DNA of 64,000 nt from Thermoplasmata archaeon. Lineage in GTDB: Archaea > Thermoplasmatota > Thermoplasmata > Lutacidiplasmatales > UBA184. Position numbers and translations under genes: made by a program. Positions 3,190 through 64,000 of the stretch are shown piece by piece (position 1 is the first letter of the stretch; every line of letters starts with the position of its first letter). The DNA is taken from contig DAHUYN010000001.1 in assembly GCA_027315165.1 (NCBI GenBank), positions 124,001 through 188,000 of the forward strand. The letters are read 5' to 3'. The notes beneath the pieces are model-generated. The model worked only from the letters and a program-made list of their open reading frames with translations. It searched no databases and was not told the DNA's origin.

Positions 3190-4110
3190 ATGGCCGTCGA
3201 GTCCCCGCGTCCCTGGTTCGCTCCCACGGGAAGCGCCCGGCGCACGGCCGCGTCGGCCGCGGCCGGGGGGGTCGAGCGCGTCCCCACGGGGGTTCCCGAC
3301 TTCGACCATCTCTCGGGGGGTCTCCCGGCCGGCTCCGTCGTCCTCCTGGTCGGCGAGGCGGGGGCGGGGCACCAGGAGTTCGCCGTCACGAGCGCGGTCC
3401 ACCTGATGCTCCACTACGACGACCCCCGGCTGCACACGTTCTACCTCGGACGCACGCGCGGCCCGTTCCGCTATCCCAAGGGGGTCGCCTACCTCAGCGT
3501 GAGCCGGATGCGCGACCAGGTCCTCCGGGAGGTCGGGGCGGCGTTCGACCCGATGTACGAGGAGGTCCTCCAGCGTCATCTGTCGTTCCGCGACCTCTCA
3601 CCGAGCTACTTCGCCGACTCGGTCGTGCCGAGCGACTGGGCCTCGATTGCGGCGCCGCTCCTCTCGAGCCTTCCGGCCGAGAGCCGGACGGGGGCCTCGG
3701 GACCCCTCGCCTCGCTCGCGGCGGCGCTCGACGAGGAGGGTCCGTCGAACCTCGTCGTCGTCGACTCCCTCACCGACCTCTTGGTGCGGCGCGGCGTCGA
3801 CGGCGAGGAGCTCCTCACGCTCATCAAGGGACTCCGACGGCGGGCGAAGTCGTGGGGCGGCCTCGTCTACCTCCTCCTCTCGCGGGGCGTCGCGACGGCG
3901 GCGGTCGAGCAGGCGCTCTACGACAGCGTCGACGGCGTGCTCTCCTTCGCCTGGACGACGAGCCCGCTGCACTCGCACCGGCAACGGACGATGTTGATCG
4001 AGAAGTTCATGCCCGTGCTCACGCGCATCCCGACGGAGCAGCAGGGCCGATTCGTGCTCCAGGTCAGCGACCTCAACGGGCTGGTGACGACGCAGTATGA
4101 ACGGATCTGA
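3190..4110 (+). CDS. KaiC/RecA-superfamily ATPase-like protein with degenerate Walker A
   Basis: VPTGVPDFDHLSGGLPAGSVVLLVGEAGAGHQE (K-T replaced by H-Q); Walker B-like NLVVVDSLTDLL. Confidence 0.8.
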   Translation: MAVESPRPWFAPTGSARRTAASAAAGGVERVPTGVPDFDHLSGGLPAGSVVLLVGEAGAGHQEFAVTSAVHLMLHYDDPRLHTFYLGRTRGPFRYPKGVAYLSVSRMRDQVLREVGAAFDPMYEEVLQRHLSFRDLSPSYFADSVVPSDWASIAAPLLSSLPAESRTGASGPLASLAAALDEEGPSNLVVVDSLTDLLVRRGVDGEELLTLIKGLRRRAKSWGGLVYLLLSRGVATAAVEQALYDSVDGVLSFAWTTSPLHSHRQRTMLIEKFMPVLTRIPTEQQGRFVLQVSDLNGLVTTQYERI

Positions 4111-4819
4111 GGCCAAGGTCCCGAGGGTCCCGACCGGGATCCCCGGGCTCGACGACATGCTCGACGGAGGCTTTCCCGAGGGTCACGTGATCCTCGTCAC
4201 GGGCCTCCCCGGAACGGGAAAGACCTGCTTCGGCCTCCAGTTCCTCCTCGGCGGCGTCGCGAAGGGCGAGACCGGGGTCTTCCTCTCCCTCGAGGAGGAG
4301 ACGCCCCAGCTCACGGCCAGCGCGCGCCAGTTCGGCTGGCCGGTCGACTCGGCCGTCGCGGCGAAGCGGCTCCACCTCGTGCGCCTCGACCCCAAGGACG
4401 CGAAGCGCAACCTCGAGCGGATCCAGTCCGACCTCGGCCGCGAGCTCGCGCAGCTCGGCGCGAAGCGGATCGTCGTCGACTCCGTCTCGCTCCTGAACAT
4501 GCTGAGCGACACCGAGCCCGCCCGGAGGACCACGCTCTTCGCCCTCGCCGCCGCGTGCCGTGCGGCGGGCGCGACGACGGTCCTCACGGCCGAGGCCGAC
4601 CCGGTGCACCCCGAGGTGAGCCGCGACGGCCTCACCGAGTACGTCGCCGACGGCGTGATCCTTCTGAGCTACTCGACGGCCGCCGACGGCCGGCGCGTGG
4701 GGCTCTCGCTCCGCGTGATGAAGATGCGTCGGACGCAGCACACCCGGAGCATCCAGCCGTACGAGATCGGGGCCCACGGCCTCAGCGTCGACGCGAAGGC
4801 GGTCGACTTCGGGCGGTAG
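4097..4819 (+). CDS. KaiC-like RecA-superfamily ATPase, intact Walker A
   Basis: VPTGIPGLDDMLDGGFPEGHVILVTGLPGTGKTCFGLQFL; overlaps upstream gene by 14 nt. Confidence 0.88.
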   Translation: MNGSEAKVPRVPTGIPGLDDMLDGGFPEGHVILVTGLPGTGKTCFGLQFLLGGVAKGETGVFLSLEEETPQLTASARQFGWPVDSAVAAKRLHLVRLDPKDAKRNLERIQSDLGRELAQLGAKRIVVDSVSLLNMLSDTEPARRTTLFALAAACRAAGATTVLTAEADPVHPEVSRDGLTEYVADGVILLSYSTAADGRRVGLSLRVMKMRRTQHTRSIQPYEIGAHGLSVDAKAVDFGR

Positions 4820-60581: not shown

Positions 60582-61358
60582 TCAGCCGATGTAGCCGAGG
60601 TCCTCTCGGGCCGGCTCGCGCTGCGACTCCGACGGCCGCTGCTCGGCCTCGTGGATCTTCTGGGCGATGCGGTCGATCTCTTGCGCCTTCGACTCGAGCT
60701 CGGAGAAGTCGACCGCGACCCCGAGGATCTTCGTGAGCACCTTGAGGACCGCCTCCGCGCTTCTCGGGTCGACGAAGTAGCCGCTCGTCTCGCCCATGAG
60801 GCAGACGCCCTCGATGCCGAAGGTCCGCCCGAGCCCGAGGAAGAGGCCGCTCGCCCCGATGAGCCCGCCGCCCGGGTCGTTCCGCGAGAAGACGACCCCG
60901 TGCGCCTTCATCGCGTTCACGCGTTCCTCCGAGGTCGCCGCCCCGAGGACGCGGGGCTGCTCGACGACGTGGCCCTGGGCGAAGCCGGCGAGCGTGTAGA
61001 CCTCCTTGACACCGAGCCCGTGACAGAACTCGAGGACGCGGTGCGTGAGCTCGTACTGCCCCTCGGGGGAGATCCCCTGGTAGTCGCCGCCGAGGATGAT
61101 CAGGTCGTGCTCGCCGGGCTTCTGGGCCCGCCGGTAGGTGAGCTCGTTCGAGACGATGCGGATGATCCCGTCCTCGTTGACGTAGACCTGCGGCGGGAAG
61201 AACTTCGAGTAGACCGAGGCGAGCGGCTTGGCGTGGAGCTGGTCGCGGAGGTAGTCGGCGGCGAGCTTGCCGACGTTGCCGACGCCCGGCAGCCCTTCGA
61301 CGAGGATCGGGTCCTTCAGTTGAGGCCGGTCGGTGACGCGGATGAGGACGTCTTCCAT
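60582..61358 (-). CDS. PAC2-family (proteasome assembly chaperone-like) protein
   Basis: DPILVEGLPGVGNVGKLAADYLRDQLHAKPLASVYSKFFPPQVYVNEDGIIRIVSNEL. Confidence 0.9.
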   Translation of the reverse strand: MEDVLIRVTDRPQLKDPILVEGLPGVGNVGKLAADYLRDQLHAKPLASVYSKFFPPQVYVNEDGIIRIVSNELTYRRAQKPGEHDLIILGGDYQGISPEGQYELTHRVLEFCHGLGVKEVYTLAGFAQGHVVEQPRVLGAATSEERVNAMKAHGVVFSRNDPGGGLIGASGLFLGLGRTFGIEGVCLMGETSGYFVDPRSAEAVLKVLTKILGVAVDFSELESKAQEIDRIAQKIHEAEQRPSESQREPAREDLGYIG

Positions 61359-61408: not shown

Positions 61409-62170
61409 CTAGGGTGCGCGGCTCTCGGCGGGCGCGAGCTCGAAGCCGCTCGCCGAGGCGCGGGCGCGACGGACCTGGGTGAGGTCCGGGTGGTCGCGTA
61501 CCTTGCGGAGCGCGAGGGCGTGCTCGGCCCCGTGGGCCCCCGGCTCGGTACGGAGGTCGACGATCAGGTCGGCGAGGTCCTCGAGGAACCCCTGCACACG
61601 CCGTTCGTGGACGTCGGTCTGCAGGACGACGAGCGCCTGGCCCTGCAGCTGCTGGCAGAGGTGGCGGAGCTGCCGGACGACGACCATCACCTCGGCCGGC
61701 TGGAGGACCTCGAGGAGGAAGTCGAGCGAGTCGAGGACGAGGCGGAACGGTGCGTCGATCGTGGCGAGGTCGGCGAGCATCCGGCTCTCGAGGTTGTAGA
61801 TGCGCCGGCGCACCGGGGGGGGCTGCGGGCCGAGCAGGTCCTGGACGGTGAGCCCGCGCTCGCGGGTCTTCGAGACCTCGAGGTCGCGTCGAAGGACCCG
61901 CTCGAAGTACTCGTCGGCGAGGTTCACGACGGCGAGTCCCTGCGTCGGCCACTGCCGGTCCGCGAACGAGCGCTCGACGTCCTCGGTGCGCTCGTAGGTG
62001 GTGTAGTAGAAGACCGGGACCCGGGGCAGGCCGGCCTTGGCGAACTGCTTGGCGAGCAGCGGCGAGCCGCTCCCGGCCGGGCCCTCGAGGAGGGCGAGCC
62101 AGCCGGGGGGCAGCGCGGGCCCGAGCTCGGCGTCGAGCTCGGCGATGCCGAAGACGGGCGTGGCCTTCAC
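61409..62170 (-). CDS. KaiC/RecA-like protein with degenerate Walker A
   Basis: FGIAELDAELGPALPPGWLALLEGPAGSGSPLLAKQF (GKT replaced by GSP); Walker B-like FRLVLDSLDFLL; GTG start overlaps upstream stop by 1 nt. Confidence 0.78.
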   Translation of the reverse strand: MKATPVFGIAELDAELGPALPPGWLALLEGPAGSGSPLLAKQFAKAGLPRVPVFYYTTYERTEDVERSFADRQWPTQGLAVVNLADEYFERVLRRDLEVSKTRERGLTVQDLLGPQPPPVRRRIYNLESRMLADLATIDAPFRLVLDSLDFLLEVLQPAEVMVVVRQLRHLCQQLQGQALVVLQTDVHERRVQGFLEDLADLIVDLRTEPGAHGAEHALALRKVRDHPDLTQVRRARASASGFELAPAESRAP

Positions 62171-62754
62171 TAGGGGCCTCCCCGGCCGACGCGGATCGTC
62201 TCGTCGACGACGAGCGAGAGCATCTGGTCGAGCTCGCTCGTCGCGTCCTCGCTGACGGAGAGGACGAGCGCGAGGACCTGGCGGCTCTTCAGGTTGTTCA
62301 GCAGGATGTGGAAGAACTCGGAGAGGAGGTCCTTCGGATTGTGGATGGCGAGCGAGTTCACCGAGTCGATGACGACGATCGTCCTCGGGGACGGGTGGCG
62401 CCGCAGGAGGTACTCGACCCGCAGCATGATGTCCTCGAGCATCCGCGGGCTCTCGATGTAGGAGGCGTTCGGGAGCGGGTCGCGGTAGTTCATCATGATG
62501 TGACTGATCGCGTCGACGAACGACAGGCGCTCCGGCGCCACGTCGAGCGCCTGCGCGAGCGACCAGACGAGCGCCGCGGGGTTCGTCACCGAGACGTAGA
62601 TCGTGTGCGTGTCGCCGCTCGAGCCGACGTCCCGGAGCGTCGCCGAGAGGACGGTGAAGTACTCGTCGGCGTAGGCCGCGGGGTCGAGGCGGACCGCGAC
62701 GGCGGCGCCGCCCGTGAGGCCGCGCAGGCGGTCGCCGAGGTCCCCGATCGGCAT
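62170..62754 (-). CDS. KaiC/RecA-like protein lacking Walker A
   Basis: RTIVVIDSVNSLAIHNPKDLLSEFFHILLNNLKSRQVLALVLSVSED Walker B region; no GxxxxGK[ST] anywhere. Confidence 0.75.
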   Translation of the reverse strand: MPIGDLGDRLRGLTGGAAVAVRLDPAAYADEYFTVLSATLRDVGSSGDTHTIYVSVTNPAALVWSLAQALDVAPERLSFVDAISHIMMNYRDPLPNASYIESPRMLEDIMLRVEYLLRRHPSPRTIVVIDSVNSLAIHNPKDLLSEFFHILLNNLKSRQVLALVLSVSEDATSELDQMLSLVVDETIRVGRGGP

Positions 62755-63540
62755 CTAGACGCCCTCCGGCCGGCTGCCCTTGAGGTGGGGCGCCATCAGG
62801 AGGCCGATCGGGGTGAGCTCGATCACGTACTGCGCGCGCGAGTGCGAGGTCCCGCGCATCTTCACGATCTGCAGGACCCGGATGATGTCGCCCTGCCGGC
62901 GGGTGTTCCCCATCAGGATGACCCCGTCGACGATCGCCTCCTCGACGCCGTAGAGCGAGAGGCGTCCCGCGGGGTTGCCGACCTCGCTCACGAGGATCGT
63001 GGTGCAGTCGAGCTCCGAGAGCTCCTGGCTCAGCTTGAGCATGAAGTCGCGGATCCGCTCCTCCCGGCGGATGCGGTAGCAGACCGAGGTGAGGGAGTCG
63101 AGCACGACGCGCTTGGCGCCGAGTTCCTGCACGAGGTTCCGGAACGTGAGGACGAGGAGGTCGGTGTCCTCCGACGTGAACTCTTCCCGGTCGAGGCCGA
63201 GGCGCTCGTAGACGACCGGGACGTCGACGAAGACGAGCGAGCCGTTCTCGACGAGCTCGGGCCGGAAGAACTCGAAGGTGCGCAGGTTCTGGACGAGCTT
63301 CTTCGAGGCCTCGGTGACGGAGAGGAACAGCGAGCGCTCCCCCCGCTCGGCGCCCCGGACGAGGAACTCGAGCGAGAGCGTCGTCTTGCCGGTGCCGACG
63401 CTCCCCGAGACGAGGATCATGTTCCCCTTGGGGATCCCGCCGCCGAGGATGTCGTCGAGCCCCTCGATGCCGGTCGCGCACCGGTCCCGGACGAGGGAGT
63501 CGGCACCCGACGGCGAAGCGGACGGTACCTCAGGGACCAT
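62755..63540 (-). CDS. KaiC-like ATPase with intact Walker A
   Basis: CATGIEGLDDILGGGIPKGNMILVSGSVGTGKTTLSLEFLVRGAERGERSLFLSVTEASKKLVQN; RVVLDSLTSVCY. Confidence 0.9.
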   Translation of the reverse strand: MVPEVPSASPSGADSLVRDRCATGIEGLDDILGGGIPKGNMILVSGSVGTGKTTLSLEFLVRGAERGERSLFLSVTEASKKLVQNLRTFEFFRPELVENGSLVFVDVPVVYERLGLDREEFTSEDTDLLVLTFRNLVQELGAKRVVLDSLTSVCYRIRREERIRDFMLKLSQELSELDCTTILVSEVGNPAGRLSLYGVEEAIVDGVILMGNTRRQGDIIRVLQIVKMRGTSHSRAQYVIELTPIGLLMAPHLKGSRPEGV

Positions 63541-63565
63541 CGTCGGAAGAACGGGCGGCCCCTCC

Positions 63566-63991
63566 CTATGAGTATTGTGTCGGCGCGGAACCCCCCCCGG
63601 CGTCGACGACCCGACGCCAGCGCTCGGCCGCGAGGGCGAGCTCGTCGGGGCCGACGCTCCCCCCGAGAAGCCGCTCGAACCCCTCCCTCGAGACCGTCCA
63701 CTCCGCTCCGTGGGCCGCCCGCTCGGAGGCGACGAGCAGCCCGGAGTCGCTCAGCCGCCGTCCGAGCGCGCGCACGAGGGCACCCGACGGGTCGGCGCAG
63801 CGGCGGAGCCCCTCGAGGGGGACCCGGAGCGTCGCCGCCCCGTGGCCCTCGAGGAACCCGGCCCACAGGACGAGCGCGACGTGACGCCACTCCGTCGTGG
63901 GACCGGCCCCGGCCGGGGCCGGCCCGGAGGTCATCGGGTCCTTCGAGACGGACCCCCGCGCCGGGACGACGGTCCCGGGCCCGTCGGACAC
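63566..63991 (-). CDS. hypothetical protein, first visible gene of the KaiC-like operon
   Basis: 141-aa ORF ending 25 nt before the KaiC-like ATPase; start near window edge uncertain. Confidence 0.55.
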   Translation of the reverse strand: MSDGPGTVVPARGSVSKDPMTSGPAPAGAGPTTEWRHVALVLWAGFLEGHGAATLRVPLEGLRRCADPSGALVRALGRRLSDSGLLVASERAAHGAEWTVSREGFERLLGGSVGPDELALAAERWRRVVDAGGGSAPTQYS

Positions 63992-64000
63992 ACCCGAGAG

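Follow-up and report, generated by a model that had tools for sequence, protein, structure and literature searches.

Three adjacent genes on the minus strand near the end of the window (by which we mean the whole stretch of 64,000 nucleotides that was analysed) encode one intact KaiC-family ATPase and two relatives whose ATPase motifs have decayed. The first, here simply KaiC (261 amino acids, 62755..63540), has the Pfam KaiC domain PF06745 and the conserved motifs. The second, P2 (194 amino acids, 62170..62754), is a dead KaiC-like RecA fold, recognized by AlphaFold2 and Foldseek, that lacks both the P-loop and the KxR hairpin. The third, P3 (253 amino acids, 61409..62170), is KaiC-like by Pfam, by AlphaFold2 and by profile match, and its degenerate P-loop is itself conserved. 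The set recurs across the Thermoplasmatota. We give an even chance to the reading, drawn from sequence, that the three proteins are subunits of a single KaiC/iKaiC signalling module whose likeliest output is type IV pili.

The genes are packed tightly. The ATG of P2 lies immediately 3' of the TAG of KaiC, and P3 begins with a GTG that overlaps the TAG of P2 by one nucleotide; the spacing is operon-like. A preliminary description had reported these junctions, together with a KaiC-like ATPase reading GSVGTGKT (found at 62755-63540, minus strand), a 194-residue protein carrying a Walker-B-like IVVIDSVNSLAI without a P-loop, and a 253-residue protein whose P-loop reads GPAGSGSP, and each of these statements holds in the sequence. 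It had also listed a 141-residue open reading frame (63566-63991) ahead of KaiC. That frame does exist, but it is not the first gene of the operon; it is the C-terminus of an 818-residue HerA/DUF87-like ATPase (63566..64000, minus strand; Pfam DUF87) whose gene extends past the window.

KaiC itself presents no difficulty. It matches Pfam KaiC with E 1.1e-57 and 195.5 bits, against a curated cut-off of 26.6, and is a member of that family. Motif counts for KaiC and for P2 come from 53 orthologues of the window's taxonomic order and class, those for P3 from 46. The Walker A of KaiC, GSVGTGKT (residues 46-53, 63382..63405, minus strand), keeps its Lys in 53/53 and its Thr/Ser in 53/53 of these. 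The KMR that forms its trans-acting KxR finger (K227 and R229; 62854..62862, minus strand) keeps Lys in 52/53 and Arg in 51/53, and P-loop, E77, Walker-B D148 and K227/R229 are all conserved in nearly all of these orthologues. In the CI domain of cyanobacterial KaiC, E77 activates water and the phosphates are held by K52 plus K224/R226 of the n+1 subunit, the last two being the counterparts of K227/R229 in the window's KaiC (PMC2777353).

The second protein is harder to place by sequence. Against Pfam KaiC, P2 scores E 1e-4 and 22.2 bits, slightly below the cut-off of 26.6, and so falls short of membership by sequence; its profile-profile match to KaiC is weak, and a PDB sequence search gave it no match up to E 1. 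The AlphaFold2 models of P2 and P3, both run on 23-sequence alignments, are confident RecA folds (pLDDT 90.8 and 91.3, respectively). Foldseek matches the P2 model to Elp456, KaiC, SSO2452 and PH0284 at E about 1e-6, with probability 1.00 for KaiC, PH0284 and SSO2452, and matches the P3 model to KaiC-type chains. Thus, the preliminary suggestion that all three are RecA/KaiC folds stands, resting on Pfam for KaiC and P3 and on the AlphaFold2 models and Foldseek matches of P2 and P3.

What P2 has lost can be read from its sequence and alignments. The loop behind its first strand has too few residues for a P-loop, a residue other than Glu occupies the position of the catalytic Glu, and its C-terminus falls short of the KxR hairpin. 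None of the order- and class-level P2 orthologues read has a P-loop. What it has kept is the Walker-B-like DSVN (residues 130-133, 62356..62367, minus strand), with D130 in 53/53, S131 in 50/53 and N133 in 50/53. At one locus (L180:6657-8325), three P2-like genes lie close by one another, on both strands.

P3 has lost less. It is a Pfam KaiC member (E 1.9e-9, 37.7 bits, above the cut-off of 26.6), and a profile search of the PDB finds KaiC at 8.6e-22. Its degenerate Walker A, GPAGSGSP (residues 30-37, 62060..62083, minus strand), has S36 at the Lys site and P37 at the Ser/Thr site, and the P-loop Lys is absent from 46/46 order and class orthologues and from 56/56 sequences of the order; P3 therefore has no consensus Walker A. 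Other motifs are retained: the catalytic Glu E60 (44/46), the Walker-B Asp D147 (43/46), and a KVR finger formed by K223 and R225 (61496..61504, minus strand; K 45/46, R 39/46). In a nearly full-length alignment of the P3 and KaiC profiles (profile match 96.9%), E60, D147 and K223-x-R225 sit on E77, D148 and K227-x-R229 of KaiC. One distant family has a P3 reading GTSGAGKE (L176:6941-7687), where the Lys is present and Glu replaces the Ser/Thr. P2 and P3 also share weak similarity with Pfam DUF7504 and DUF7090, of which they are not members, because all of these matches are below the Pfam cut-offs.

The dead sites are shared by relatives. Among 106 genomes of the window's order, P3 is found in 85 (a few of the matches being weak) and P2 in 81, and at every locus measured KaiC, P2 and P3 follow one another at intervals of about -8 to +53 nt. 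At class level, KaiC and P2 adjoin in 32/32 loci and P3 is next in 25/32; of the seven loci without a following P3, three reach the end of a contig. P2 is present in 182/300 genomes of the class and in 123/243 of a sample of the phylum. Among 20 loci taken either from families farther away in the phylum or from ones that lack P3, KaiC and P2 are together in 16 and P3 lies alongside in 11. Some families have KaiC and P2 only, with P3 missing. The conserved neighbourhood on which the preliminary description made its inference depend is thus found, with the same gene order across order, class and phylum; this recurrence and the Pfam matches set the triad beyond chance. It had also allowed that intact P-loops in close orthologues would point to assembly error; instead, the losses recur in close and distant orthologues alike. 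With the RecA folds of P2 and P3, none of its three refuting conditions came true. Identical losses and identical order in orthologues of the order, class and phylum rule out both assembly error and pseudogenes, and the dead sites are therefore an old, maintained state. Median NG86 dN/dS values (KaiC 0.31, P2 0.40, P3 0.60) are given no weight here, because G+C is high and the pairs are distant.

How might such a set work? At the level of genes, it has what a KaiC/iKaiC hub calls for, an active KaiC whose gene stands with those of inactivated homologues. On the most parsimonious reading, only KaiC would be able to bind ATP and hydrolyse it normally. P2 (without P-loop, Glu or finger) and P3 (with a dead P-loop and an intact finger) would be pseudo-ATPases that either enter mixed rings with KaiC or dock onto it, where they would set the ATPase or the phosphorylation state of KaiC and relay that state to a partner. 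The retained finger suggests that an ATP site of KaiC can be completed by a P3 next to it. Here, P3 could lend its Lys/Arg finger to the ATP held by an adjacent KaiC, and the composite site so formed would report the presence of P3 in the complex. Conservation of KaiC's own KxR makes KaiC-KaiC contacts likely as well, so the ring need not be strictly mixed.

The same facts feed a second account, in which KaiC is homomeric, P2 and P3 are two iKaiC regulators that join no common complex, and the gene order reflects shared expression or a shared pathway only. KaiC has kept both P-loop and KxR and could form complete sites with itself; further, pairs without P3 occur. Such an account must, however, live with a gene order that is strict and very long-lasting, with spacing near zero, and with motif losses that are complementary. 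We consider it somewhat unlikely. For the single module, complex formation, stoichiometry, input signal and pilus output in this organism are all things that we infer.

The case for pili comes from relatives. In 18/32 class loci outside the window's own order, pilin-like genes (AVSPVIATILMVAITVVLAAVLY) lie no more than about 400 bp downstream of the module, as they do in 6/20 of the more distant loci, which makes 24/52 outside that order. Four of five such proteins tested against Pilin_N score above the cut-off. Because each of the 22 genomes checked holds only 1-6 Pilin_N genes, this linkage is far beyond chance, even with related genomes being non-independent; in two genomes (G246 and G363), the module-linked Pilin_N gene is the only one found. 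Outside the order, the type IV pilus platform family PF00482 occurs in 126/128 genomes with P2 versus 55/107 without it, a comparison uncorrected for phylogeny. KaiC families have been connected to archaeal type IV pili (PMC4858521), and the KaiC homologues CirA and ArlH act on archaella and motility (PMC13286277, PMC12240190, PMC8978795).

A set conserved across the phylum, often beside pilus genes, is therefore probably one switch for cell-surface filaments. Judging from relatives, its output would most likely be the choice, amount or assembly of pilins, with ArlH and CirA, in archaella and motility, as the model. The weakest step is to carry this output, by analogy with those relatives, to the window's organism. 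None of the 21 loci read in its order has a pilin next to the triad, and the three Pilin_N genes of its genome are all on other contigs. Nor do type IV pili depend strictly on the triad. Among sampled genomes of the order that lack it, 10/11 retain a platform gene (T2SSF family), and the triad is therefore not needed for such pili.

In the window's own family, the triad keeps different company. The HerA-like ATPase, whose full gene can be seen at L009:7566-10022 (minus strand), scores 26.0 bits against Pfam DUF87 (cut-off 23.2); its stop is 25 nt from the start of KaiC, and it precedes the triad in most family members with enough flank. Downstream of P3 by 50 nt is a gene for a PAC2-family protein (proteasome assembly chaperone family; 60582..61358, minus strand; PF09754 E 1.5e-55, TIGR00162 272 bits), a neighbourhood kept only within the family, and a putative MidA-type methyltransferase gene, so named from inspection, also lies downstream. 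HerA-like, PAC2 and MidA-like genes thus flank the triad in this family. A defence system was considered and rejected: PADLOC matches the HerA-like protein to mad8 at 1.4e-21 and KaiC only weakly (4.2e-5), and finds no match for P2, P3 or PAC2.

These neighbours might mean that this order has put the module to a different use, in which it would work on DNA with the HerA-like ATPase as a mediator complex resembling the RadA/Rad51 paralogues, where a single member hydrolyses ATP and the rest are dead. The 25-nt spacing and the conservation of the neighbour within the family speak for this, as does the presence among the structural neighbours of P2 and P3 of SSO2452, which we take to be a RadA paralogue. 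Yet in the other families read the triad was found to have no HerA-like gene beside it, a NurA gene was not identified there, and by sequence P3 is closer to KaiC than to RadA; we regard this re-use as quite improbable. The most specific form of the pilus reading would draw the HerA-like and PAC2 proteins in as well. In it, a mixed ring would have complete ATP sites, each at a junction where live KaiC meets the finger of a dead P3, and P2 would be the other dead subunit, one that has no finger; the whole would be an ancient, phylum-wide switch of type IV pili that was rewired to HerA-like and PAC2 partners in the window's order. Put so specifically, it is unlikely to be right.

Other KaiC-like genes are found in the same genome. 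At 3190-4819 of the window (plus strand) is a second pair of dead and live KaiC, where 3190-4110 (306 amino acids, P-loop reading GEAGAGHQ) overlaps 4097-4819 (KaiC, GLPGTGKT); its dead member is in 84/106 genomes of the order, including some without the triad. Several KaiC-like matches also cluster at a contig end (G000:C8:1-9000, L010).

By one proposal, the principal home-grown hubs of archaeal signalling are KaiC-like proteins, and the teamwork of inactive with active KaiC homologues is largely untested in the field. The triad offers a defined case of three proteins, conserved across the phylum; it yields a specific prediction, a composite ATP site that draws on the finger of P3, and has a likely output, pili. 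The preliminary description went too far in calling it an undescribed system, because hubs of active and inactivated KaiC homologues in archaeal signal transduction had already been proposed (Makarova, Galperin and Koonin 2017, via PMC5847659, where the name iKaiC is used). In the literature searched, which did not include the 2017 hub paper, we found neither this exact triad nor its conservation across the phylum nor its linkage to pilins.

The triad is best described as a deeply conserved variant of these KaiC/iKaiC hubs. As far as they are described in PMC5847659, it shares with them a KaiC-family ATPase plus homologues with inactivated ATPase domains, and differs in being a fixed KaiC-P2-(P3) set, with two distinct dead families, Thermoplasmatota-wide and repeatedly beside pilins. 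ArlH (FlaH) of the archaellum likewise has the RecA/KaiC fold and works with a machine of the type IV pilus kind, and among the 50 Foldseek matches listed for P3, FlaH 4yds leads by TM-score (0.68/0.76). ArlH, however, is one protein, which binds ATP and belongs to the archaellum operon; the triad has three members, of which two are dead, and none of the genes identified at the triad locus is an archaellum gene. For CirA of Haloferax volcanii, the description is of one protein that has paralogues, rather than of a triad with dead subunits.

Last, Elongator Elp456 joins three distinct RecA-like subunits into a ring, and these subunits lack consensus P-loops (PMC11050213); for the triad, a ring is a proposal. 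An archaeal counterpart of the hexameric Elp4-Elp5-Elp6 ring, working in tRNA handling, would fit the best Foldseek match of P2, yeast Elp456 at E 7.7e-7, and weak Pfam matches of KaiC to PAXNEB (5.6e-4) and of P2 to Elong_Iki1 (0.0053). But chains of KaiC and of archaeal KaiC-like proteins reach similar scores with better TM-scores (0.67-0.73 versus 0.51-0.60), and the Elp matches are below cut-off (KaiC-PAXNEB 19.5 bits versus 28, P2-Iki1 16.8 versus 22.5) beside a KaiC match of 1e-57; the pilin linkage and the patchy presence within the phylum also argue against it, and we think such a counterpart very improbable. Homology to Elp456 is unsupported beyond the common fold, and as an analogy for ring architecture Elp456 may still hold. 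It is a eukaryotic tRNA-modification subcomplex, whereas the triad has one full ATPase and a sequence affinity to KaiC.
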